A stretch of DNA of 64,000 nt from Geothrix sp. (GTDB lineage Bacteria > Acidobacteriota > Holophagae > Holophagales > Holophagaceae), in assembly GCF_030219325.1 (NCBI RefSeq), contig NZ_CP126625.1, positions 856,857 through 920,856 of the forward strand, in the 5' to 3' direction. Below, piece after piece: positions 22,205 through 36,903 of the stretch (the stretch's first letter is position 1; each line of letters starts with the position of its first letter). Below the pieces are notes generated by a model. It made no database searches, was not told where the DNA came from, and worked only from the letters and a program-made list of their open reading frames with translations. The translations under genes were made by a program, and so were the position numbers.

Positions 22205-25200
22205 ATGAATGATACGGGTCACGAGCTGCGGGATCTACTGAGGTCGACCGGACCCGCCGGGGACCTCGGGGCCCCGGGAGCGCGGCTCCGCTGGATGTCC
22301 CCTGGGGCCCTGGCCCTGGTGCTGGCGCGGTGGGTGGGCCGCGAGGGCAGGCCCCAGACCCTGTGGGTGGATGCCCCCAGCGAGGCCGAGGCCCGCATCC
22401 TGGCGCAGGATCTGCAGGCCCTCCTGCCCGGGGCGGGCGTGGCGCATTTCCCGGGCTTCGCGGGCTACGCGGGCGGGGAGAGCAGCCCGCCCGGCATGGT
22501 GTTGCGGGAGCGCCTGTCCACCCTGGTGGGCCTGCTGGAGCGCCGCGTGCAGGTACTGGTCACGGGACCGCTCACCGCCTGCGAGAAGCTGCCCCATCCC
22601 ACCTGGTTCCAGAAGCAGAAGCTGGAGCTGCGCAAGGGGGCCGAGGTGCCCCGCGAGCTGCTGCTGGAGACGCTGATCGCCTTGGGCTACCGCCGCACGG
22701 AGATGGCCTCGGCCCCGGGCGAATTCAGCTCCCGCGGCATGGTGGTGGACCTCTGGCCCGACCACCTCGACCAGCCCCTGCGCCTGGAGACCTTCGGCGA
22801 CGAGCTGGAGCGGCTCAGCCCCTTCGACCCGGACAGCCAGCGCCGCACCGGCGAGGCACTGGAGACCCTGACGCTCTACCCCCGCTTCGAGGGCGATCGG
22901 GGCGATGGCGAGGCCCTGCTGGCCGCCGTGGCCTCCCGCGCCAGCCTCACGCAGGAACCCGGAGACGACCTGGCCTTCCGCCGCGCGCGCCTGGCCACCC
23001 ACGGCCACTTCCCGGGCGAGGAGCTGTTCCATCCCCTGCTGGCGCAGGCGAAGGGCCAGCTGGTCCACTGGGTGCCGCCCTGCCTGCGGGTCCGTCTTGA
23101 CCCAGCCTGGGAGGAGGCCCTGCGGGAGGCGGAGCGCACCCGCATCGAAGATGGCCTGGCCATGCTGCGCCGGGGCGGTGTGGTGTGTCCCGACTTCGAG
23201 GATCGTTTCCTGCCCACGGATCCCAGCCGGTCCACCCTGCTGCTCACCGAGTGGCAGAGCGAGGCCACGGTGCCCCTGGCCGCCCAGCCCGTGCGCGAGT
23301 TCCAGGGCCGCCTCTCCGACCTGGCGGACCACCTGCAGGATCTCGCCCTCACGGGGCATCGCGTGTTCCTGGCAGGCTCCACGCCGGGCATGCGGGACCG
23401 CTTCCAGGAGTTCATCCGCGAGCACGAGCTGCCCCAGGCCTACGGCACCGAGGTGGGCTGCCGCGCCCTGCACCTGTCCCTGAGCGCGGGCTTCCACCTG
23501 AAAGAACCCGGCCTGGTGATCTTCACCGAGCGCGAGGTCTTCGGGCGCAAGGCCGTCCAGGCGGCGCCGAAGAAATCGCGGAGCTCGGCCTTCCTGTCGG
23601 ACCTGCGGGACCTCAAGCCCGGTGACCGCGTGGTGCACCTGGACCACGGCATCGGCGAGTTCGTGGGCTTTGCCACCCTCACCGTGGGCGGCGAGGAGCA
23701 GGAGGTGCTGCAGCTGCGCTACGCCGATGGCGGCCAGCTCAACGTGAGCCTGGAGCGGGCCGACCTCATGCAGCGCTACACCGGCGCCGAGGGCCACCTG
23801 CCGCCCCTGGACAAGCTGGGTGGGGCCTCCTGGGCCAAGGTCAAGCGCCGGGCCAAGAAGGCCATCCGCGACATGGCCGACGAGCTGCTGAAGCTCTACG
23901 CCCAGCGCAAGCTGGAGAAGGGCCATGCCTACCCGGCGGACGGGCCCGACATGGCGGCCTTCGACACGAGCTTTCCCTTCACCCTCACGCCGGACCAGGT
24001 CGAGGCCATCGAGGCGGTGAAGGCGGACCTGGAATCGCCGCGCCCCATGGACCGCCTGCTGGTGGGTGACGTGGGCTTCGGCAAGACCGAGGTGGCCATG
24101 CGCGCCGCCGCCAAGGTGGCCCTGGAGGGCAAGCAGGTGGCCGTGCTGTGTCCCACCACCGTGCTCTGCTTCCAGCACTTCCGCACCTTCCGGGAGCGCT
24201 TCGCGGGCTTCCCCATCCGCATCGAGATGCTCAACCGCTTCGTGGATGCCACCGACCAGAAGCGCATCCTGCAGGAGCTGGGCGACGGCAAGATCGAGAT
24301 CGTGGTGGGCACCCACCAGATGCTGGGCGCCAAGGTGAAGTTCGCGGACCTGGGCCTGGTGGTCATCGACGAGGAGCAACGCTTCGGCGTGGGCCACAAG
24401 GAGAAGCTGAAGAAGCTGCGCCTCAACGTGGACCAGCTGGCCCTCAGCGCCACGCCCATCCCCCGCACGCTCCACATGAGCCTCACGGGCCTGCGCGAGA
24501 TCAGCCTCATCGAGACGCCGCCCAAAGACAGGCTGGCCATCGAGACCGTGGTGGCGCCCTGGAGCGACGAGCTGGTGCAGACCGCCATCCAGTTCGAGCT
24601 GCGGCGCGGAGGGCAGGTGTACCTGGTGCACAACCGCGTGGAGTCCATCGTCAGCATCGCCGCGCGGGTGCGCGAGCTGGTGCCCGATGCCCGAGTGGGC
24701 GTGGGCCACGGCCAGCTCACGGACGAGGGCCTGGAGCAGGTGATGCTTGGCTTCATGGAGGGGCGCATCGACGTGCTGGTGGCCACCACCATCGTGGAGA
24801 ACGGCCTGGACGTGCCCAACGCCAACACGCTCATCGTCCACCGCGCCGATGCCTTCGGCCTCAGCCAGCTCTACCAGCTGCGGGGCCGCGTGGGCCGCAG
24901 CGACGTGCCCGCCTACGCCTACCTGATGATCCCGCCCAAGCATGAGATCAGCGAGGACGCCCGCAAGCGCCTGCAGGCCCTCGAAGATTTTTCCGAGCTG
25001 GGCTCGGGCTTCCGCGTGGCGGCCATGGATCTCGAGTTGCGCGGCGCGGGCAACCTGCTGGGGGGCGAGCAGAGCGGCCACATCCACGACATCGGCTTCG
25101 AGCTCTACGTGAAGCTGCTGGAGGAGACGCTCTCGGAGCTGCAGGGCCAGCCCAGCGGCACCTTCGAGGTGAAGCTGGACAACCTGGCCCCCGGCGCCCA

Positions 25201-25609
25201 GCTGGGGCGGCGCTGGATCGACCAGGCCAGCGAGCGCCTGGTGGCCTACAAGCGCATCTCCCGGCTGCGCGAGGAGAAGGACCTGGAGCTCTACCGCATG
25301 GACCTGGAGGATCGCTTCGGCCGCATTTCCGAAGACGATCCCGAGACCCTGCGCTTCTTCGAGCTGCTCAAGGTCAAGCTGCGGGCCCAGGTCCTGGCCG
25401 TCTCCGAAGTGGCCCTGGACAAGGGCCAGCTCAAGTTCCGCCTCAGCCCCCAGACGCCCCTGGACCCCGCCAAGCTCATGGCCTGGGTGGGCCGCACCAA
25501 GGGCGCCAGCCTCAGCCCCGACGGTGCCGTGCGCCTGCCCGTGCAGGGCACCGCCGACGGCCCCATTCTCCAGGCCCAGCGGGTGCTGGTGGAGTGGGCG
25601 GGGCTGTAG
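22205..25609 (+). CDS. mfd: transcription-repair coupling factor Mfd (3' end supplied by the integrated element)
   Basis: 1134 aa, normal Mfd length. The UvrB-like N-terminal part is followed by the RNA-polymerase-interacting domain (LKPGDRVVHLDHGIGEFVGF), the RecG-like ATPase with Walker A GDVGFGKTEVAMRAA, DEEQ box (IDEEQRFGVGHKEK), helicase motif ALSATPIPRTLHMSL and QLRGRVGRSDVPAYAYL, and the TRCF C-terminal domain. It displaces stalled RNA polymerase and recruits UvrABC. The last 368 nt (25242-25609) have a near copy at 36536-36903, and element DNA begins right after this stop. The present 3' end therefore most likely came with the element, keeping the protein intact. Confidence 0.97.
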   Translation: MNDTGHELRDLLRSTGPAGDLGAPGARLRWMSPGALALVLARWVGREGRPQTLWVDAPSEAEARILAQDLQALLPGAGVAHFPGFAGYAGGESSPPGMVLRERLSTLVGLLERRVQVLVTGPLTACEKLPHPTWFQKQKLELRKGAEVPRELLLETLIALGYRRTEMASAPGEFSSRGMVVDLWPDHLDQPLRLETFGDELERLSPFDPDSQRRTGEALETLTLYPRFEGDRGDGEALLAAVASRASLTQEPGDDLAFRRARLATHGHFPGEELFHPLLAQAKGQLVHWVPPCLRVRLDPAWEEALREAERTRIEDGLAMLRRGGVVCPDFEDRFLPTDPSRSTLLLTEWQSEATVPLAAQPVREFQGRLSDLADHLQDLALTGHRVFLAGSTPGMRDRFQEFIREHELPQAYGTEVGCRALHLSLSAGFHLKEPGLVIFTEREVFGRKAVQAAPKKSRSSAFLSDLRDLKPGDRVVHLDHGIGEFVGFATLTVGGEEQEVLQLRYADGGQLNVSLERADLMQRYTGAEGHLPPLDKLGGASWAKVKRRAKKAIRDMADELLKLYAQRKLEKGHAYPADGPDMAAFDTSFPFTLTPDQVEAIEAVKADLESPRPMDRLLVGDVGFGKTEVAMRAAAKVALEGKQVAVLCPTTVLCFQHFRTFRERFAGFPIRIEMLNRFVDATDQKRILQELGDGKIEIVVGTHQMLGAKVKFADLGLVVIDEEQRFGVGHKEKLKKLRLNVDQLALSATPIPRTLHMSLTGLREISLIETPPKDRLAIETVVAPWSDELVQTAIQFELRRGGQVYLVHNRVESIVSIAARVRELVPDARVGVGHGQLTDEGLEQVMLGFMEGRIDVLVATTIVENGLDVPNANTLIVHRADAFGLSQLYQLRGRVGRSDVPAYAYLMIPPKHEISEDARKRLQALEDFSELGSGFRVAAMDLELRGAGNLLGGEQSGHIHDIGFELYVKLLEETLSELQGQPSGTFEVKLDNLAPGAQLGRRWIDQASERLVAYKRISRLREEKDLELYRMDLEDRFGRISEDDPETLRFFELLKVKLRAQVLAVSEVALDKGQLKFRLSPQTPLDPAKLMAWVGRTKGASLSPDGAVRLPVQGTADGPILQAQRVLVEWAGL
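25242..25260 (+). repeat. candidate attL core (19-bp direct repeat)
   Basis: TGGCCTACAAGCGCATCTC within mfd codons for VAYKRIS. It is identical to 36536-36554. Immediately 5' the two sites differ (GG here, TC on the right), so identity begins exactly here. After this block the copies diverge at synonymous positions. Confidence 0.75.
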
Positions 25610-25747: not shown

Positions 25748-26788
25748 CTAGCTCACGAGGTTGATGGCCTCGCGCATCTCTTCCTCACGGGTCTCGATGT
25801 AGATCATCGTGGTCTCCACCTTTGAGTGCCGCATGAGCTTCTGGATGGTCGGCAGGGGCACCCCCCGCTTGTTGAGGATGTTGGCGAAGCTCGCCCGGAG
25901 GCGGTGATCAGTTAGGTTTGGAGGCAATCCGAGCGTCTTGGCCGCCCGCTTGATGTAACGGGTCGCCAGATGCCCGCAGCGAGGTTTGCCGCCCTTCCCG
26001 GGGCAGATCAGGCCGATAGGGTTTGGGCCCGGCATGAGCCGCTTGAACCACGGAATCATTGCCTCGGGGATCGGGATGACCGGGGCGTCACCGTTCTTCG
26101 TCTTGTCCGGGATGAACACCTTCTGGTCGAGTCGAAGGCCGGACCACTTCATCAATCTCGCCTCGTGGTTCCGCATGCCCATCAGGAGCTGGGCCCGGAC
26201 GAGAAAACTCGCCTGGAGATGGCCGTAAGCATCCACGGCCTCTAGGAAGCGGTCTAGATCGTCCACGGGCAACACAGGCCGGGCTTTCTTCTGCACCGGC
26301 ACCATCTGGATGCGGGGCTTCCGGTCGATCCACCCCTTCTCCAGGCCGAATCCCATCAGGGCGCTGATGTTGAGGGCGAGCCCGTTTGTGCCGGTTGCGG
26401 CGTGTGTCTCCAGGTAGCGGTTCAGCACCGTGTTGATCGCCGTAGCGTCGATCTTGGTGAGCTGGAGGCCCCCGAGGTAGGGCAGGACATGCTTCGTGAC
26501 CATCAGTTCGAGGCTTCGGGTGTATTTCCGGGTCCGTTGAGGTGCCCGCTCCTGCATCCAGGCATCGAAGCACTGCCGGAATGTGATGACCTTGGGGCGT
26601 TTGATGCCGACGCTTTCCAGGGCGAGACGCCCCTTCATGGCGTTGACGTAATCCCGGGCTTCGTTGACGCGGTAGCAGCCAGTGGAGCCCGTGTGGATCC
26701 GGCCCTGGTAGGAGAATCGATAGAGGTAGACGCCGCTCTCCGGGTGCTTCGCCAGGTTCTGGACGAAGTGCAGCTTTCCGTCCTCCAC
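25748..26788 (-). CDS. int: tyrosine recombinase (phage-type integrase)
   Basis: 346 aa from GTG 26788, chosen because AAGGAGG (26795-26801) sits 6 nt upstream; the frame stays open to ATG 26944, but that extension reads as non-coding proline/arginine-rich sequence. A core-binding region at about 70-165 (RKYTRSLELMVTKHVLPYLG) precedes the catalytic domain. Catalytic residues visible are Arg206, His295-x-x-Arg298 (DHRLRASFAN), His321 and nucleophile Tyr330 (HSKVETTMIYIET). It most likely catalyses integration at the mfd core repeat about 0.5 kb away. The gene ends toward the left junction, a common integrase placement. Confidence 0.93.
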   Translation of the reverse strand: MEDGKLHFVQNLAKHPESGVYLYRFSYQGRIHTGSTGCYRVNEARDYVNAMKGRLALESVGIKRPKVITFRQCFDAWMQERAPQRTRKYTRSLELMVTKHVLPYLGGLQLTKIDATAINTVLNRYLETHAATGTNGLALNISALMGFGLEKGWIDRKPRIQMVPVQKKARPVLPVDDLDRFLEAVDAYGHLQASFLVRAQLLMGMRNHEARLMKWSGLRLDQKVFIPDKTKNGDAPVIPIPEAMIPWFKRLMPGPNPIGLICPGKGGKPRCGHLATRYIKRAAKTLGLPPNLTDHRLRASFANILNKRGVPLPTIQKLMRHSKVETTMIYIETREEEMREAINLVS

Positions 26789-27312
26789 GCGACGCCTCCT
26801 TGGGCGCACCTTCCCCTGGTTTGCCGTTGAGGACACCGGAGGGTTCCACGGCCCCATGGTTGGACAATCATCCCCGAGCCCTGAAGGCTCGGAATCACCA
26901 TTCCTGTTGCCCAGGACGGCATTTTGGAGGAGGACGATTGGCATGGTGGGAAATTCAGCGGGGGTGTCCCGAGTAGGTTGCGAGGCGGGCTTTGGGATGC
27001 CCCGGTTTGGTCGGTCAAGCGGGTGACACCGCCGGGACCGAGAGAGGAAGTATCAATCTGGAAGTCGAAAAAGTTTTCCAGGATCCAGATTTTCCGAAAT
27101 TTGATGAATTTTAAATTCAGTCAGCCCGTGGAAAGGAGGCCGGCGCCAAGAGCCATCGGCACCGGCCTCCTCGCTTCGGTCTACCGTGGCTACCACTACA
27201 TGGATTGTGAGATCGTAAAAAATGGAGAAGTCGTTGCACTCGCAAGGCACATCGTAAATATCGGGTAGTTCTTCGGGCGTGAGAGTTTGAGGAATTGCCC
27301 AAAATAAGAAAG
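26789..27312. promoter_or_regulatory. AT-rich intergenic region between int and the DUF6602-type gene
   Basis: About 520 bp without a confident gene. It contains a perfect palindrome TGAATTTTAAATTCA (27105-27119) and a 7-bp inverted repeat ATCTGGA/TCCAGAT (27056-27062, 27084-27090), both plausible regulator sites. A possible 54-codon ORF lies at 27104-27268. The int side is GC-rich; AT content rises sharply from about 27050. Confidence 0.4.
27104..27268 (+). CDS. possible small protein, unknown
   Basis: A 54-codon frame beginning MNFKFSQPVERRPAPRAIG and ending with a stretch that reads like real protein (YRGYHYMDCEIVKNGEVVAL). No convincing ribosome site precedes the ATG and no homologue is recognised. 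It could be a genuine small cargo gene or the tail of a decayed one. Confidence 0.25.
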   Translation: MNFKFSQPVERRPAPRAIGTGLLASVYRGYHYMDCEIVKNGEVVALARHIVNIG

Positions 27313-28080
27313 ATGAGAGAAATGAACCAAGCAAAGGCTGCGTCGAAAATAGACGGGAAGAAATTCCTAAGGGAGGCGTTTGCCGCTGAACAGGCTGTAC
27401 TTGCTCTTCAGCTCGACTTATCAAGCAGATCCATCACACACAGTGGGGTGATGGGGGATGTCAACGAACAACATTTCATTGATGTGCTTCGCAAGTACTT
27501 GCCCATGCGCTATGAGGTTTCCCAGGGCATAGTGATTGACTCAAATGGATCCACAAGCGAGCAGATCGATATTGTTATTTTTGATAATCAGTACACACCC
27601 ACACTTCTTGACCAAAAGTCACACCGGTTCATCCCAGCTGAAGCGGTTTATTGTGTTCTTGAAGTAAAACCAACACTGAGCAAACCCTACCTTGATTATG
27701 CTGCCGCAAAGGCTCATTCGGTCAGGATTCTCGAACGAACAAGCGTTGCAATCCCGCATGCTGGTGGTGTGTACTCACCCAAGGAGCTATTCCCAATAAT
27801 CGCAGGCATAGTTTCTACCAAAGTAGATTGGACTGATGGCCTAATCGGAAGGCCCTTTACTGAGAACCTGGCAGCACTAGGCGATACACATACTCTTAAC
27901 TGCGGATTGGCCGTCTCGGATCGAGCTTTTGATACATTTACGGGAGATCTGACAATTAGCGAACCACAAGGATCGTTGGCATTTTTTATATTCCGCTTGA
28001 TTCAGCGATTGCAGGCACTCGGTACAGTACCTGCCGTCGATTGGAACAAATATGCCTCATTCTTGGGCAACGATTTCTGA
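27313..28080 (+). CDS. DUF6602-like protein with PD-(D/E)XK nuclease-like motifs
   Basis: About 255 aa. An early Glu in GDVNEQHFIDVLRKYLP, then EQIDIVIFDNQYTP and VLEVKPTLSK give the spaced E...D...E-x-K pattern of PD-(D/E)XK folds; the overall sequence resembles DUF6602. Such proteins occur in mobile and defence loci, but their activity is not established. The start is uncertain: ATG 27313, ATG 27322 and an upstream TTG 27295 are in frame, none with a strong ribosome site. GC is far below the host. It is convergent with the 240-aa gene. Confidence 0.65.
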   Translation: MREMNQAKAASKIDGKKFLREAFAAEQAVLALQLDLSSRSITHSGVMGDVNEQHFIDVLRKYLPMRYEVSQGIVIDSNGSTSEQIDIVIFDNQYTPTLLDQKSHRFIPAEAVYCVLEVKPTLSKPYLDYAAAKAHSVRILERTSVAIPHAGGVYSPKELFPIIAGIVSTKVDWTDGLIGRPFTENLAALGDTHTLNCGLAVSDRAFDTFTGDLTISEPQGSLAFFIFRLIQRLQALGTVPAVDWNKYASFLGNDF

Positions 28081-28197: not shown

Positions 28198-28920
28198 TCA
28201 ACGGTTCGGCCCCAATGCTGACTCTTCCCTTGCTGCTTCGATTTTCGGTGTGATCCGTTTGAAGAAGTCCTGCATTTCACGGGCAAAACGCTTGTTTGAG
28301 CACCAAATGAGCTTGTGTTTACCCCCAGGTGTCACGATCTTAAATCCGAAACCGATTGAAGTCGGGAGATGCTTTTGATAGCTGAATAATGAGAATCCAT
28401 GGCCATCGGGTAGGTCGAAAAGACCTTCAAGGTACTCAAGCTTCCCAAGTCGTTCGAAAATCTTCGCCTCATCTAGTTTGAGGCGCCCATTCTCTATCTT
28501 GGTGAGGTCAACGATGGCCGTCCTATCGAAAAAGAGCCCGGGCTCTGCACCAATGTGATTGCGGGCCATCCACCCAATTCGAAGGGGACGAAATAGAGAC
28601 CTTAGGAGAAGTGACATCTCACCAACGATGGATTCTGTAAGCGGGCCGAGCTTGCTGTGTGAGATGGCGAACAGGGTCTCATGTTCTTCATGCCCACCCT
28701 TGACTCTCCGAGTACGGTGTACATCCACTTGTTTCGTAACAGGGCCGAAGTGAAGAGAGATATGTTCTTGAGATCCCTTCTGGGCAAAGAAAATTTTGTC
28801 ATCAAGGAAAGTGACGATAGCTGACCCAAGATCGAGTTTTTTCACCCCCATGGAAAGAGCAGTTGTCTCATCCATTCCTGCCTCTGCCTCTGATTGGATC
28901 ACATGGATCTGTGTTCCCAT
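28198..28920 (-). CDS. hypothetical 240-aa element protein
   Basis: Not recognised. No signal peptide or membrane segment. The sequence is of mixed alpha/beta character with several Phe/Gly-rich strands (GHGFSLFSYQ; SIGFGFKIVTPGGKHKLIWCS) and a charged C-terminal helix (REMQDFFKRITPKIEAAREE). AGGAAA upstream supports ATG 28920. Low GC like its neighbours. It is convergent with the DUF6602-like gene and downstream of the XRE regulator on the same strand, separated from it by the repeat cluster at 28982-29052. A cargo or defence role is only a guess. Confidence 0.55.
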   Translation of the reverse strand: MGTQIHVIQSEAEAGMDETTALSMGVKKLDLGSAIVTFLDDKIFFAQKGSQEHISLHFGPVTKQVDVHRTRRVKGGHEEHETLFAISHSKLGPLTESIVGEMSLLLRSLFRPLRIGWMARNHIGAEPGLFFDRTAIVDLTKIENGRLKLDEAKIFERLGKLEYLEGLFDLPDGHGFSLFSYQKHLPTSIGFGFKIVTPGGKHKLIWCSNKRFAREMQDFFKRITPKIEAAREESALGPNR

Positions 28921-29185: not shown

Positions 29186-29650
29186 TCAGGCCTCAGACGT
29201 GGTTTCCTGGATTCCGGCCTGCAACGCCTCAAGACGCGCCTTGATCTGACGCTTACCCATGCCCCGGACCTCGGCAATCGCCTTCAGTTGATTGGCTCGG
29301 GGGCGAGTCTTCTCAGCCTCCCAGTGGTAGATGGTCTGAGCAGCCACCCCGATTAGAAGTCCCAGGTCTGCGGCTGAGAGGCCAAGCTTCTTCCGCATGG
29401 AGGCGAACCGCTTTGGGCTGAAGCGAAGTTGCTTCCCCTCGGAGGGCTGGAACTCCTCGCCTTTGGCCCTCGCAGCGGCCTTGATGCTACGCATTGACTG
29501 GCGTTCAAGCTGCTCGACATGGCGCTTCAGAGCGGCGATCTCAGTGCGCTGCTTGGCGGAGGCATTCTTCAGCGACTCGATCTCGCTTTTGATTTCTTTG
29601 CGGGCGAGTCGCATGATTTCGGATTTAAGGATTGAAGCGATGTTGGGCAT
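29186..29650 (-). CDS. XRE-family HTH regulator with N-terminal coiled coil
   Basis: 154 aa. Residues about 10-60 form a charged heptad-like helix (KSEIESLKNASAKQRTEIAALKRHVEQLE pattern), a likely dimerisation coiled coil. Residues about 80-130 are a Cro/CI-type helix-turn-helix (MRKKLGLSAADLGLLIGVAAQTIYHWE). AAAGGC precedes ATG 29650. It is probably the element's own regulator, and the GGTAATG cluster about 130 bp beyond its end, next to the 240-aa gene, is a candidate target. Confidence 0.8.
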   Translation of the reverse strand: MPNIASILKSEIMRLARKEIKSEIESLKNASAKQRTEIAALKRHVEQLERQSMRSIKAAARAKGEEFQPSEGKQLRFSPKRFASMRKKLGLSAADLGLLIGVAAQTIYHWEAEKTRPRANQLKAIAEVRGMGKRQIKARLEALQAGIQETTSEA

Positions 29651-29939: not shown

Positions 29940-32900
29940 ATGTCGCGCCAATTTCTTCTATCGATGCTAATCGCCCTGTCGTTGGGGGGAGGCAGCCTGA
30001 AAGCTCAGAGCTACCAGACTTCCTTCTCAGACGTGAAATTCGACCGAGCAAAAGGACCGGCCACGATTCACGCAGGTCTGGAGGTCGATGCCGCAACGGG
30101 TGCCGCAAGTATGAACATTCCGTTCGGCCCAGGGATCGGTGAGAGAGGCTTGAAATTTACGCCAACTCTATCAATGCGGATTGGACCCCAGATGGGCATC
30201 AGTTCTGCTGAGGAAAACATTATTGTCGTACCGGCGGCCTTCTCGAACGCCGCCATTTGGGGCCTCACAACAATCGAAACGTTGTACCAGCGTAGCTTTG
30301 GATCGGCATCGTTTTCTCCTGGAACGCTAACGCTAGGCACCATGGTGAGTACTTTTGACCGAAAGCCAACAACTTACAGCCTACCCAATGGTGGTGGTGG
30401 ACGAGTGCTGGGGCAAGTCCCAGCAGGTATTGACTCAACTAATATCAACACTTTGCTGAGAAAATTTGGATTTAGTGCTACAGACACCGTCGGTTTCCTT
30501 CCGGGAAGGACCGATCGTCCTAGCAAAGCAGCGTTCATCCAGATGGGATCGGACAGCAGTCTAATTGTTGGCCTTCGGGTGGACGGTCCATCAACTGCTC
30601 TCACCGATGAAGTCCGAGACGATATTCAGCAGTATCCAACCTCCAACCTGTATCAATGGGATTTCCCCCGGCGGGTGGCGGTCATTCATGGGGAAGTGGC
30701 CTACGAATTCCATTATGTGCGTCATACCTACATGACCAGGCATATTCCATACCTGACCATTTCTGAAAAGACACAACTCTACAGTGGCCACTACGTCATC
30801 ACGAAGATTCGCAACAAACTTGGGGAGTCGATTGACTTTAGCTACGATTCCGATGGAAGTGGCTACACTGCGACCTGGAGTGTAAATCCCTCTGTGAAGA
30901 TCCGTGTTCAAGCAGTGGGGTCGGTGGCGGTTTCGAGTCAGCCCAGCTTGAACAATAGCAACTTTCCATTGGCTAGTGCCACTCGTATTCGAGTGTCCTA
31001 TCAAGGGATTAGCCAACCGGTATCGACTTTCCTGCTGGACTTTTCTGATCCGACACTTGGGACTGCCCCGACGCTCTTTGGTCCCGGCGGACCGGATAGC
31101 GCAGCGGCGAATAGTCCGAATGGGATTATCGATTGGGATTGGCAGGGCTATGGTGCAGCACTCGAATCCATGCAGCCGCTTCGGATTTATAAGGAGGCAA
31201 CGCTTGAGGAAATCCGATTCACCTGGGGAGTGGGCCCCACCTTTTCCTGGGACAACTGGTTATCCCTTACGAGGGGCCCAACCGTCCTATCGAGTGTCGC
31301 GTTCCCAACTCGAGATGTCACTCTAACCTGGGAGCCCTATCGTTATCGAGCCAACTACAACCCAGAGGGGTGGGGTGGTGTTGCCTCAAGTTCTCTGCCT
31401 GGCCGCCCAGCGGTGGCCTATGGGGTCATTCAGACGCTTGATTCCGGTGGGCCTCTTTCCCGCCAAACCACGCATCATCGAGTTGTTCCTATGTCGAATT
31501 GGAACAATCTGCCAGTAGGACAGACTATTGCTGATCAATGGACTGATACCACTTTCTATGATGCCGTCACACAGCCTGATGGATCTGTGAGTGTCCACCG
31601 ATTCGTTTCACCACCCTCAATCAATGCCCTGACTGGTGCGGATGGGATGCAGAATCTAGCATTCATCAAGACCCTGGAGCGAGAAGTTCGTTACTACCAA
31701 CCGGGTGCTGATTGGCAGTCTGACCTCGCCGTGACCACTCCCGCGTCCAGTTCTGCCTACAAGTGGGTCGTGAAGGACCGATTTGATGTTCGGACGCCTG
31801 GGTCTACCAATGGCGGTCTCGGCAACCAGTCAGTTCCCTATCCCACCCGAACTCGCACCTGGGAAAAAGAGAATCAGATCCTCACCATTCAGGAGAGTTC
31901 TGGGTGGGATGAGGCTGCCTTTGGTTGGAAGGCCAGCCACACAACCACTTCAATCGTAGCCAACCCCAATTTGGCAATGGATTACCTCAGCCTAGCCCAG
32001 GCTGGTCAGGCTTACTCCCCCTATCCAGCACCACTGGGGGTCTATCGAAAAACCGAAAAGACCTTTGAACCAAACATCGCTGATTGGATTATCTCCCGGG
32101 AAAAATCAGAACAATCCACCACCGTCGAAGACAACACTGGGTTCCTGGCCAGCGGGGGGACCCTACCGGACGCCCAGCCATTGGTTACCAAAACCTTTAA
32201 CCCGAACGTCAATCGTGTGGATTCAGTAGCCGTGAGTAATTCGGGTGCTCCAACGGTTACAACAGATTTCACCTTCATCGGCACTACTGGGGTCGCGGCA
32301 ATCGAAATCCAGAGCGCCTTCCTCAACTCTACCGGGCTTGGCCTAAGTGGACAATTTGGTGTGAGTAGCTACAGCTACGATGCCAATGGCTATCTAAATG
32401 CTATTAGCCAGAAACCAGATGCCTCGAAAACCCTAACGGTGAGCCAGGAATCCGATGAATTGGGCCGACCCAAGACTCAGACAGATCTGAATGGCACCAT
32501 TAAGACCTATACCTGGGATCAGGGCGGGCGCCTTTCAGGGATTTCATCGTCCGATGGAGATGAACCGATCAGCATCGTCTATAACGATACGGACCATCTT
32601 GGGATAACCGTCACCCAGGGCCTCCGGATTTTAGAATACCGTTACAACGCTTTTGGACAGCTCATTCTCGAACGTCGAACGGCCCAGGATGGGACCAAAT
32701 CTCATCGTATTCATGGCTACGATTGCGTTGGCAGACCAACCGGCGAAACAGTCTGGCTTCTTGGGGATGGCGCTGCTCACGAGGGGGAATGGCTCAATGC
32801 GGCCCTCACGCGTTCCAACACCTCAACAACAGTCGTCCCAGAACGAACCACCTGCAAGAAATGGGGTCTTGACGATGCAGGGAACGCAGTTTGTCTCACA

Positions 32901-35609
32901 TGGCAGACCATACCCGCCAGCACCACCACAGTCACCACGGCGGCACTATACCTCGGCGCGGCGACCAAATACGACGGCCGGGGCCGCGCCATTTGGACCC
33001 AGGATGCCAATGGTATTCAGACCACCACCGACTATTTCGGCCCTGGAAACTTGCCACCGGGAGTCGCCTCCTATATTGGACCCATCACGAGGGTGACCGT
33101 TGGGACTACTCAGGTGAAGTGGTTTGAAAGCGACAGCGTTGGTCGATTTGTGCGGATGATCACTCCCGTAACACGGTACGTGGATCCGATGAACAGCCCC
33201 AGCAAGTCCGTCGTGAACCTTCGCACAGAGTACCGTTACGACACAGGAGGCCGGGTCAAAGATGTCCGGCAGTATGACGAGGCCAACCGAACCCAAACTC
33301 GAACCTGGGCCTACAATCGCCTCGGCTGGCTGGAGAGCTTGGAACAACCAGAAAGCGGAATCACCTCCTACAGTGGATTCACGGTTGCAGGTAAGCCTAC
33401 GGTAACAAGCTACGCCGGGCGCGTCGTCAGAATGTCACCTGACTGGATGGGTCGTCCTCTGAACGTAGCTGCTGACGATGGCAGTGTGACGCAGGCTTTC
33501 GTCTACGACACGGCTACAGGTGGGAAGGGTCGATTAGCAAGTAGCACAGACGGCGCCGTGACGACCGAATATAACTATAGTGGTCAGGGAAATAGGCTGA
33601 GTAGCCTATCCACCACAACTCTGGTTCAAGGCGCGAATCAAACATTTACCCAGACCTACATCCATGACACATCCGGAAATAGAACAGGAGGCAACACCAG
33701 TCATGGGGCATGGACACAGACCTACCATTCACTAACGGGTTTGCCCAATATTCTGACCTATGGGACAGGGAATGTGGCCAGCACGCCATGGGTTTACTAC
33801 GACTCGGTAAGTTGGGCCTTGAAGTCCATTGCTTATGGAAATGGAGCTGCAAGCAACTTTGACTACGATCCTGATCAGGCAAGATTGAAGGAGATGAAGC
33901 ACCTCGATGGTCAGGCCGTGCTTCAGGCGCACTGGGGATTCAAGTACGACGATGTCGGGAACATGGTGACAGAATTTGATAAGACACGCCCAGACGGGGC
34001 CGGATCATACGCTTTTGACCAGTTTGGGTATGACGAACTTAATCGCTTGATCTCGGCAGTGGTGCAGTCCTCCAGTTACGGGGAGCAGCTGCAGGAATTT
34101 GATTACGACGCGTTTGGCAATCGGATCTCCAGCAACATTCGCCGGGTCACTTCATGGCAGGGCGTAAAGGGAGCATCTACTGCATACGTGACAAGCTCTG
34201 GCCTATTGAGTGCCCAGGGGACTCAGGTGGTCAATGCGACATTTAGCCAGGGCAGTACAGCCTTGATGCAGAACCGCCTTCCCAATGTAACATCCACAGG
34301 TGTTCCAACCGGCGCAACCTACGATCTTCAGGGGAATTTGCTCACGCTCTATGAAAAGCCAACCAGTGTCAACCCAGTGCTGCTCACCATGACCTATGAC
34401 GCGCTCGGAAGGGTGCTAACTGTTTCCAGTAGCAAAACAGGGCTCACAGAGAAGTACAAATACACCGCTGAGGGCTTACGGACGGTGGTGGAGGAGTACA
34501 ACGCTTCCACCCTGCAGAAGACCCGAGTAAATATCTACAACGATTCTCGACAGCTCGTGGCGCAGTACGAGAAAGCACCTGCCGGGGTGCTCACTTGGAA
34601 GCGCGATATTCTCTACTTGGGCACTAGGGAGGCCGCCGAGATCGATGCCGCTGGCATGCATGTCACCCAAGTGGACCATCTCGGCAGCCCAAGGGTGATT
34701 ACTGGACCTACCGGGGCCGTTGAGACCAAACAGAAGTACCTGCCATTTGGAGAACTCCTCGAGCAGTCAGGGGCGTTCAGAACGGCTAAGGGGTACACAA
34801 ATCACGAACAAACTGACACAAGCGGGCTGGTTTACATGCAGGCTCGGTTCTACGTGCCTTGGTTTGGGCGCTTTGCCAGCCCCGATCCTGCACGAGATCA
34901 GCATTTTGATAACGGTCAGAGCTGGAACATATACAGCTATGTGAGGAACAACCCTGTTATGAGCACGGACCCCACTGGGATGGAGGAAGAGAAAAAGGAG
35001 AAAAATGTCAACAGTGGTGCGGTTGGTCCAAATGATCGACCGTATATTGCTGCAGGAGAACCACCTCCAGCAACTCCGGCGCAAACAAAATTGATTTCAG
35101 ATAAATTGACAGAATATACAAAAAAATCTTCAACATTATCCAACGCAAGAAATTACTTAGGAACGAAACCAGATGGGGATCTAAATCTCATTGTAATCAA
35201 TGATCCAAAATCAAATGTAATTGCTAATTATGACAATAATGCTTGGACGATGACAGTTAACATAGCAAATGTAATGACTGATGGACTGGTTAATGATGCA
35301 GTTCTGTCAAATGCACTCGGGCATGAATACCGCCATGCGGAGGCAGACGCCCTTGCGGTCTCTTCGGAGAGCCGCACAGTTGATTTACGTGATTCGGGAG
35401 GTGGGTTACGTAATTCAACCATGACCAGCAGCTCAGACTACAGTCGCTTTAGAAATGAAGCTGCCCGGGATGGTGCCGCAGCTTCGAATACGAATTTGTC
35501 TCCAAGATCTAGAAATCAAGCATTAAAGCGATATTGGGATAACCCTATAGAGATAGATGCTCGTTGCGCAGGTGCAAAGGTTGCTTCGGAGGTGGGTAAT
35601 GCTAAGTAG
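29940..35609 (+). CDS. exported Rhs-repeat protein with C-terminal HExxH metallopeptidase-like toxin domain
   Basis: 1889 aa. A Sec signal peptide (MSRQFLLSMLIALSLGGG) starts the protein. Tyr-Asp/Rhs repeats fill the middle (YSYDANGYLNAI, YDALGRVLTVSS, FDYDAFGNRISS). The Rhs-associated core runs at about 1571-1677 (DHLGSPRVITGPTGAVE, YLPFGE, MQARFYVPWFGRFASPDP, NPVMSTDPTGM). The variable C-terminal 212 residues contain His1795-Glu-Tyr-Arg-His1799 followed by Ala-Glu-Ala-Asp, and near the end NPIEIDARCAG, the zinc-metallopeptidase layout. Base composition drops to AT-rich just after DPTGM, as in polymorphic toxins whose tips are exchanged. Delivery route and target are unknown; no T6SS gene is near. 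Confidence 0.85.
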   Translation: MSRQFLLSMLIALSLGGGSLKAQSYQTSFSDVKFDRAKGPATIHAGLEVDAATGAASMNIPFGPGIGERGLKFTPTLSMRIGPQMGISSAEENIIVVPAAFSNAAIWGLTTIETLYQRSFGSASFSPGTLTLGTMVSTFDRKPTTYSLPNGGGGRVLGQVPAGIDSTNINTLLRKFGFSATDTVGFLPGRTDRPSKAAFIQMGSDSSLIVGLRVDGPSTALTDEVRDDIQQYPTSNLYQWDFPRRVAVIHGEVAYEFHYVRHTYMTRHIPYLTISEKTQLYSGHYVITKIRNKLGESIDFSYDSDGSGYTATWSVNPSVKIRVQAVGSVAVSSQPSLNNSNFPLASATRIRVSYQGISQPVSTFLLDFSDPTLGTAPTLFGPGGPDSAAANSPNGIIDWDWQGYGAALESMQPLRIYKEATLEEIRFTWGVGPTFSWDNWLSLTRGPTVLSSVAFPTRDVTLTWEPYRYRANYNPEGWGGVASSSLPGRPAVAYGVIQTLDSGGPLSRQTTHHRVVPMSNWNNLPVGQTIADQWTDTTFYDAVTQPDGSVSVHRFVSPPSINALTGADGMQNLAFIKTLEREVRYYQPGADWQSDLAVTTPASSSAYKWVVKDRFDVRTPGSTNGGLGNQSVPYPTRTRTWEKENQILTIQESSGWDEAAFGWKASHTTTSIVANPNLAMDYLSLAQAGQAYSPYPAPLGVYRKTEKTFEPNIADWIISREKSEQSTTVEDNTGFLASGGTLPDAQPLVTKTFNPNVNRVDSVAVSNSGAPTVTTDFTFIGTTGVAAIEIQSAFLNSTGLGLSGQFGVSSYSYDANGYLNAISQKPDASKTLTVSQESDELGRPKTQTDLNGTIKTYTWDQGGRLSGISSSDGDEPISIVYNDTDHLGITVTQGLRILEYRYNAFGQLILERRTAQDGTKSHRIHGYDCVGRPTGETVWLLGDGAAHEGEWLNAALTRSNTSTTVVPERTTCKKWGLDDAGNAVCLTWQTIPASTTTVTTAALYLGAATKYDGRGRAIWTQDANGIQTTTDYFGPGNLPPGVASYIGPITRVTVGTTQVKWFESDSVGRFVRMITPVTRYVDPMNSPSKSVVNLRTEYRYDTGGRVKDVRQYDEANRTQTRTWAYNRLGWLESLEQPESGITSYSGFTVAGKPTVTSYAGRVVRMSPDWMGRPLNVAADDGSVTQAFVYDTATGGKGRLASSTDGAVTTEYNYSGQGNRLSSLSTTTLVQGANQTFTQTYIHDTSGNRTGGNTSHGAWTQTYHSLTGLPNILTYGTGNVASTPWVYYDSVSWALKSIAYGNGAASNFDYDPDQARLKEMKHLDGQAVLQAHWGFKYDDVGNMVTEFDKTRPDGAGSYAFDQFGYDELNRLISAVVQSSSYGEQLQEFDYDAFGNRISSNIRRVTSWQGVKGASTAYVTSSGLLSAQGTQVVNATFSQGSTALMQNRLPNVTSTGVPTGATYDLQGNLLTLYEKPTSVNPVLLTMTYDALGRVLTVSSSKTGLTEKYKYTAEGLRTVVEEYNASTLQKTRVNIYNDSRQLVAQYEKAPAGVLTWKRDILYLGTREAAEIDAAGMHVTQVDHLGSPRVITGPTGAVETKQKYLPFGELLEQSGAFRTAKGYTNHEQTDTSGLVYMQARFYVPWFGRFASPDPARDQHFDNGQSWNIYSYVRNNPVMSTDPTGMEEEKKEKNVNSGAVGPNDRPYIAAGEPPPATPAQTKLISDKLTEYTKKSSTLSNARNYLGTKPDGDLNLIVINDPKSNVIANYDNNAWTMTVNIANVMTDGLVNDAVLSNALGHEYRHAEADALAVSSESRTVDLRDSGGGLRNSTMTSSSDYSRFRNEAARDGAAASNTNLSPRSRNQALKRYWDNPIEIDARCAGAKVASEVGNAK

Positions 35610-36000
35610 GGTCGCGATATCTGGGAGTATAATTGCAGGGTGTTATTTACATGGAGAGACTGTGGCGGAATCCAGTAAGGCATCGTTGAAAATATGGATG
35701 GCATCCTTTCGCGCCACACTAAATGAAATTTGCGATTGCGATAATGTGGGTGTCTCATTGTTTAAGGGGAGCGATAACACTTATATAATTAGAATAGTTA
35801 GCGCGAAATCTGAAATTGAATCTACAGCATATTGGCAGCATTCCAATTCGACCGGAGTTCGGAAGCTCGCAGCTACTGAAATCAGTTTTCATGAAATAGG
35901 GAAGCAGCAGATTTTGAGATACAGAGGCGTCGATTTTGTATATGAGAATGGCTTTTCATGGTACAAAAATGCTATTCCTAATCTGACAAAGCCCGATTAG
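35599..36000 (+). CDS. putative lipoprotein immunity protein for the Rhs toxin
   Basis: 133 aa from ATG 35599, 11 nt inside the rhs end, preceded by GGAGGTG. The N-terminus MLSRVAISGSIIAGC fits a lipoprotein signal with lipobox Ile-Ala-Gly-Cys15, so the mature protein would be membrane-anchored outside the cytoplasm, matching an exported toxin. The rest is a small mixed domain with two Cys (ICDC) and no known family. Immunity is inferred from the overlap, strict order and AT-rich composition shared with the toxin tip. It could instead be an accessory or chaperone protein. Confidence 0.6.
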   Translation: MLSRVAISGSIIAGCYLHGETVAESSKASLKIWMASFRATLNEICDCDNVGVSLFKGSDNTYIIRIVSAKSEIESTAYWQHSNSTGVRKLAATEISFHEIGKQQILRYRGVDFVYENGFSWYKNAIPNLTKPD

Positions 36001-36535: not shown

Positions 36536-36554
36536 TGGCCTACAAGCGCATCTC
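36536..36554 (+). repeat. candidate attR core (19-bp direct repeat)
   Basis: TGGCCTACAAGCGCATCTC, identical to 25242-25260. Upstream lies element DNA, downstream the displaced mfd end. Confidence 0.75.
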
Positions 36555-36903
36555 GCGCCTCCGCGAGGAGAAGGACCTGGAGCTCTACCGCATGGACCTG
36601 GAGGACCGCTTCGGTCGCATTTCCGAGGACGATCCCGAGACCCTGCGCTTCTTCGAGCTGCTCAAGGTGAAGCTGCGGGCCCAGCACCTGGCCGTCTCCG
36701 AAGTGGCCCTGGACAAGGGCCAGCTGAAGTTTCGCCTCAGCCCCCAAACGCCCCTGGATCCGGCGAAGCTCATGGCCTGGGTGGGCCGCACCAAGGGCGC
36801 CAGCCTCAGCCCCGACGGCGCCGTGCGGCTGCCCGTGCAGGGCACCGCCGACGGCCCCATCCTCCAAGCCCAGCGGGTGCTGGTGGAGTGGGCGGGGCTG
36901 TAG
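36536..36903 (+). pseudogene. mfd: displaced 3' end of mfd (fragment)
   Basis: 368 nt matching 25242-25609 with 19 mismatches (about 95% identity) and no indel, both ending at the same TAG. Seventeen differences are silent; two fall in one codon and change Val to His (AQVLA versus AQHLA). It begins at the core repeat with no upstream promoter or helicase part, so it cannot make Mfd. The next host gene starts its 3' end 10 nt later, which suggests this is the native chromosomal end left behind by integration. A 103-aa internal frame from ATG 36592 is open but has no reason to be expressed. Confidence 0.9.

Follow-up and report, generated by a model that had tools for sequence, protein, structure and literature searches.

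The window, the whole stretch of 64,000 nucleotides of Geothrix sp. DNA that was analysed, contains an island inserted at the 3' end of mfd. The island encodes an integrase, a few other proteins, a large Rhs protein with a predicted export signal and, in a frame that overlaps the end of the Rhs gene, a small putative immunity protein (Table 1).

Table 1. Features of the mfd island and of the integron arrays discussed in the text. Positions are those of the window unless a contig is given.
Feature	Position	Strand	Basis or remark
Intact mfd (transcription-repair coupling factor), with the island integrated at its 3' end	22205..25609	+	Pfam DEAD, CarD_TRCF_RID, TRCF
Left copy of 368-bp direct repeat (mfd 3' end)	25242..25609	+	95% identical to 36536-36903
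Tyrosine recombinase (island integrase)	25748..26944	-	PF00589, E=2.8e-21
DUF6602 protein (island cargo)	27295..28080	+	PF20247, E=2e-31
Hypothetical island protein	28198..28920	-	ORF only; no family above cut-off
HTH regulator (island)	29186..29650	-	PF01381, E=2.5e-9
Exported Rhs polymorphic toxin	29940..35609	+	1889 aa; 1889 codons open
Predicted Sec/SPI signal peptide, residues 1-22	29940..30005	+	Read from sequence
Rhs-associated core, residues 1600-1681, ending in DPTGM	34737..34982	+	TIGR03696
Toxin tip, residues 1682-1889 (208 aa), unrelated to sibling tips	34983..35606	+	Comparison with sibling Rhs tips
H1795-E-Y-R-H1799, putative zinc-binding/catalytic motif	35322..35336	+	Motif reading
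NPIEIDAR, with candidate third zinc ligand E1871	35541..35564	+	Motif at residue 1868
Shine-Dalgarno GGAGGT of the immunity gene	35588..35593	+	Five bases before ATG at 35599
Putative immunity protein, 133 aa, exported, lipobox IAGC/Cys15	35599..36000	+	Frame, homologues, lipobox by eye
Right copy of direct repeat: displaced mfd 3' fragment, TRCF piece, longest ORF 36592-36903	36536..36903	+	95% identity
Integron array L017	G000:C1:696000-714500		~20 attC-like repeats, 120-134 nt, 400-1260 nt apart
Integron array L018	G000:C1:2161000-2180000		~20 attC-like repeats, 120-134 nt, 400-1260 nt apart

Results

The Rhs gene and the putative immunity gene lie on an integrative island at the 3' end of mfd. 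This is concluded because the segment encodes an integrase, is bounded by the mfd repeat, has a GC content of 0.42-0.54 versus 0.68 in the flanks, and is absent from the related genome G013, in which the gene found beyond the island in the window sits ~1.2 kb after mfd. Carriage on a mobile element, which an earlier note on this DNA had suggested, is thus supported. Another species also has, apart from its main mfd and at a contig end, part of an mfd 3' end (79% identical; G021:C220:4331-4551, L200), and mfd may serve repeatedly as a site of integration.

The Rhs protein starts with MSRQFLLSMLIALSLGGGSLKA, followed by QSYQT after the predicted cleavage site; read by eye, this is a clear Sec/SPI-type signal, in agreement with the earlier note. 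RHS repeats (PF05593) were found by Pfam search, and the NCBIfam profile Rhs_assc_core (TIGR03696) matches residues 1600-1681 (E=9e-20), with DPTG at residue 1677; the core ends in DPTGM, as the earlier note states. Among solved structures, those nearest to the core are YenC2/TccC2 and the T6SS Rhs protein Tse5 (E=3.6e-9 to 7.5e-7). The shells of YenC2, TccC2 and Tse5 enclose the C-terminus and cleave it off. The repeats and the core are the only parts of the protein matched by Pfam and NCBIfam profiles; PAAR, NHL and FN-plug gave no match, and a TcB part was not detected. Delivery by a T6SS was considered and rejected as unlikely, because the gene for the sheath protein VipB/TssC was not found in this genome. 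A scan for sigma-70 promoters gave no clear match, the score being below chance.

The tip carries the HExxH motif (residues 1795-1799) and the distal NPIEIDAR segment (residue 1868) exactly as previously described. Shuffling the tip sequence gives an HExxH in 0.064% of cases, and the layout of HExxHA, ~70 residues and then NPxExDA is also seen in other, unrelated HExxH proteins. The single-sequence AlphaFold2 model, made without an alignment as the zincin-fold check that the earlier note had proposed, has a pLDDT of 35, which makes it unusable; its placing of HExxH on a helix that follows three strands is too weak to count. No Pfam family matches the tip at E<=1, and neither Pfam nor NCBIfam yielded a tip family; among the recognised metallopeptidase profiles, including Tox-MPTase1-5/M91, none matches. 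A weak NCBIfam match to CseC was far below the cut-off and was rejected. A scan of the genome and viral contigs with the degenerate pattern HExxHA...NPxEx[DE]A returned no more than chance frames and HExxH proteins of a generic kind, with weak DUF6782 or LPD23-linked matches. DUF6782 was tested as the tip family and dropped, since it matches HExxH proteins too generically. From its motif, an HExxH zinc peptidase is the most probable reading of the tip.

Homologues of the tip were not found in plasmids, phages, viral contigs, the PDB or 60 relatives, and none was accepted from 396 genomes of the phylum, where five weak matches were rejected on inspection and included no HExxH protein. The proposed search for tip homologues beside similar lipoproteins therefore came back empty. 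The downstream protein has no Pfam family at E<=1 and matches neither Imm65 nor any other immunity profile; a weak NCBIfam match to NlpE, far below the cut-off, was rejected. Judged by these searches, the tip and the putative immunity protein of this member are new in sequence.

The Rhs and immunity frames share exactly 11 nt (35599-35609), which upholds the reported overlap with a gene bearing a lipoprotein signal. The ATG at 35599 is favoured over an upstream in-frame ATG at 35557 because GGAGGT lies five bases before it. Read by eye, the lipobox I-A-G-C with Cys15, together with Arg4, fits the usual consensus, but the signal is short. AlphaFold2 without an alignment gave an unusable model of this protein (pLDDT 42). 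The searches found just two homologues of it, both 132-aa proteins of the same genome and 31-33% identical to it. Both have a Sec-like signal and a cysteine that aligns with Cys15, and both lack a lipobox, which makes lipid anchoring doubtful. Anchoring of the window protein is possible but not secure, and is perhaps incidental; judged from these three sequences, lipid anchoring is not conserved within the small family. The notion of a membrane-anchored partner outside the cytoplasm thus stands for export, to which the short signal and the family pattern described below point, and is in doubt for the anchor.

Each of the two homologues occupies one cassette in an array of ~20 attC-like sites (R'' GCCTAAC, R' GTTAGGC); as ORFs flanked by such sites, both are integron gene cassettes. 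An IntI integrase gene (C1:714363-715301; 463 bits vs a cut-off of 265) adjoins the first array (L017); none was seen beside the second (L018). Another cassette of the second array (L018:11012-11461) encodes an exported protein that shares 28-32% identity with the partner that accompanies JAB-like Rhs tips elsewhere in the family, a likeness that possibly reflects just a shared TonB-C-like domain.

A second Rhs protein of the same genome is 65% identical to that of the window over residues 5-1694 and unrelated beyond, so that a kept backbone bears swapped tips after a boundary motif, as in polymorphic toxins. The tip of this sibling is an M23 peptidase (PF01551, E=1.1e-10), and the next gene encodes an exported protein. 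Behind the sibling, at L020:3915-5450 on the minus strand, this exported gene is followed by a displaced M23-like fragment (PF01551, E=0.004, below cut-off) and then by one more exported gene, as is typical of arrays of displaced tips. At L208, L209, L212, L213 and L219 in related genomes, several copies of core plus tip stand in series as orphan tip cassettes; these loci are suited to a study of tip displacement.

The family was surveyed in 77 genomes, with core ends read from the fetched loci. The exported Rhs backbone core is present in 34 of them. The tips after the 75 core ends read are highly diverse, and many are unknowns. Besides M23, they include the cell-wall enzymes NlpC/P60, Amidase_3 and SLT. 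Other tips have an HExxH motif and are M91-like (E=0.0013, below cut-off), and by eye some show M15-like motifs (SxH...AxD...HxH) or JAB-like motifs.

Tips and downstream proteins are inherited together. Homologous but non-identical tips keep homologous downstream proteins in six of nine pairs, compared to a maximum of two in 100,000 permuted re-assignments; in the other three pairs the partners are non-homologous. An orphan copy of the M23 tip (66% identity) was found in another species, accompanied by a homologue of the exported partner (48%). By a crude hydropathy rule and against a small control, 36/66 downstream partners are signal-like and 11/66 have TM segments, versus 8/32 and 4/32 control genes. 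Some partners look cytosolic, for example DUF4926, which is paired with a DUF6883 tip and is not exported. These patterns suggest that the gene after the tip encodes, as a rule, the cognate immunity protein, the location of which varies with the tip.

Discussion

The integrase-borne island of the window probably carries an exported Rhs toxin with an HExxH tip and an exported immunity partner. The Rhs protein would be exported by Sec, as its signal indicates, and by analogy with YenC2, TccC2 and Tse5 the Rhs/YD shell would enclose the C-terminal tip and free it at DPTGM. The tip would then most likely work as an HExxH zinc peptidase in the envelope of nearby cells that are probably kin. Based on the family rule and the operon layout, the exported product of the overlapping gene would stay in the envelope of the producer and block the tip there. 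The family rule predicts an envelope-acting tip and an exported immunity protein in the window, a prediction that, as the tip has no detectable homologue, is well supported by kinship and not directly for this pair. The proposal of a toxin-immunity pair thus gains from the swapped tips and co-inherited partners across the family, and extends to this particular pair by kinship only.

It is conceivable, though unlikely, that the pair acts as proposed but the tip is no peptidase, the HExxH being incidental or structural and the target another component of the envelope, such as peptidoglycan or lipids. The recognised metallopeptidase profiles are without a match, the structure model is unusable, and in many siblings the shared backbone bears a cell-wall hydrolase with another fold. 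However, shuffled tips have the motif in only 0.064% of cases, the order of HExxHA, ~70 residues and NPxExDA recurs in unrelated HExxH proteins, and the family has other HExxH, M91-like tips; these points favour a zinc peptidase.

A less probable alternative is that the tip acts in the cytoplasm of the target and that the downstream exported protein, rather than conferring immunity, helps to process, anchor or deliver the toxin or is a hitchhiker unrelated to it. The window pair has no homologous pair elsewhere, and a MafA-type surface lipoprotein is known beside polymorphic toxins, but upstream of them (PMC3482391). The position of the downstream gene, its 11-nt overlap and its strong Shine-Dalgarno sequence instead point to an immunity gene. 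Moreover, the tip and the gene that follows it vary together across the family, whereas conservation alongside the backbone would be expected of an anchoring partner and is not seen for the downstream protein.

These loci often contain displaced tips and orphan fragments, and a clear promoter match was not obtained; both would fit decayed cargo, a large Rhs relic that no longer serves as a weapon. Decay is nevertheless quite improbable for a gene with 1889 open codons in which signal, core and motif are intact, as is the immunity gene with its Shine-Dalgarno sequence, and whose immunity homologues are kept at two further sites. The least probable reading is a secreted weapon aimed at eukaryotic predators rather than bacteria: some members of HExxH effector families, M91 and Tox-ALF among them, have eukaryotic proteins as targets (PMC3482391), but a dedicated exported immunity gene would then be needless, and several sibling tips are peptidoglycan enzymes.

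The proposed toxin-immunity pair is concrete and open to test, and its tip has no known sequence relative. As the exported Rhs proteins of the family repeatedly bear cell-wall hydrolase tips with exported immunity, the site of action and the site of protection can be compared across many natural swaps. The immunity homologues in cassettes tie integrons to interbacterial competition. It is tempting, if rather speculative, to regard the chromosomal integron as a reserve of spare immunity genes, the two cassettes guarding against tip variants of related strains. An integron link for immunity homologues was not found in the literature searched; a paper on immunity arrays of V. cholerae only draws an analogy to integrons (PMC5361080).

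Comparison with known systems

The system is of a known kind. The earlier note regarded export by a classical signal peptide as unusual, a view that is not supported: signal peptide plus RHS is listed as a standard T2SS/Sec-dependent export route (Table 1 of Zhang et al. 2012, PMC3482391), and YD-shell/Rhs toxins, many of them Sec-targeted, have been demonstrated experimentally together with downstream immunity (PMC13018210). Nor is there support for calling an exported or lipobox-bearing immunity protein unusual. The L,D-peptidase toxins have secreted or TM immunity proteins and Imm65, the sole lipobox immunity in that collection, is a precedent (PMC3482391), and most partners of the sibling tips are exported or TM proteins.

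Like other Sec-exported RHS polymorphic toxins (PMC3482391), the window protein has a signal peptide, an RHS array with core, a variable tip and a putative immunity gene directly downstream; unlike them, its tip matches no toxin family in the libraries searched. An HExxH tip on an RHS backbone is shared with Tox-MPTase1-5, the five HExxH Tox-MPTase families known on such backbones (PMC3482391), and with Tox-HopH1/M91. The window tip differs from these in having no profile match, and a distal NPIEIDAR replaces the M91-like motifs of sibling tips. Imm65, paired with Tox-JAB-1 in Bacteroidetes, resembles the putative immunity protein of the window in having a signal peptide and a lipobox and in its place beside an RHS tip, whereas the window protein does not match Imm65, its homologues have no lipobox and its partner tip is of the HExxH rather than the JAB type. 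YenC2/TccC2 and Tse5 are alike in the Rhs core, but the window protein has an N-terminal Sec signal, no TcB or PAAR part was detected in it, and the genome has no detected T6SS sheath. Finally, although neither NHL nor FN-plug was detected in the window protein, it shares with the bacterial teneurin-like proteins (PMC13018210) a Sec-targeted YD shell, polymorphic C-termini and, downstream, a putative immunity gene.
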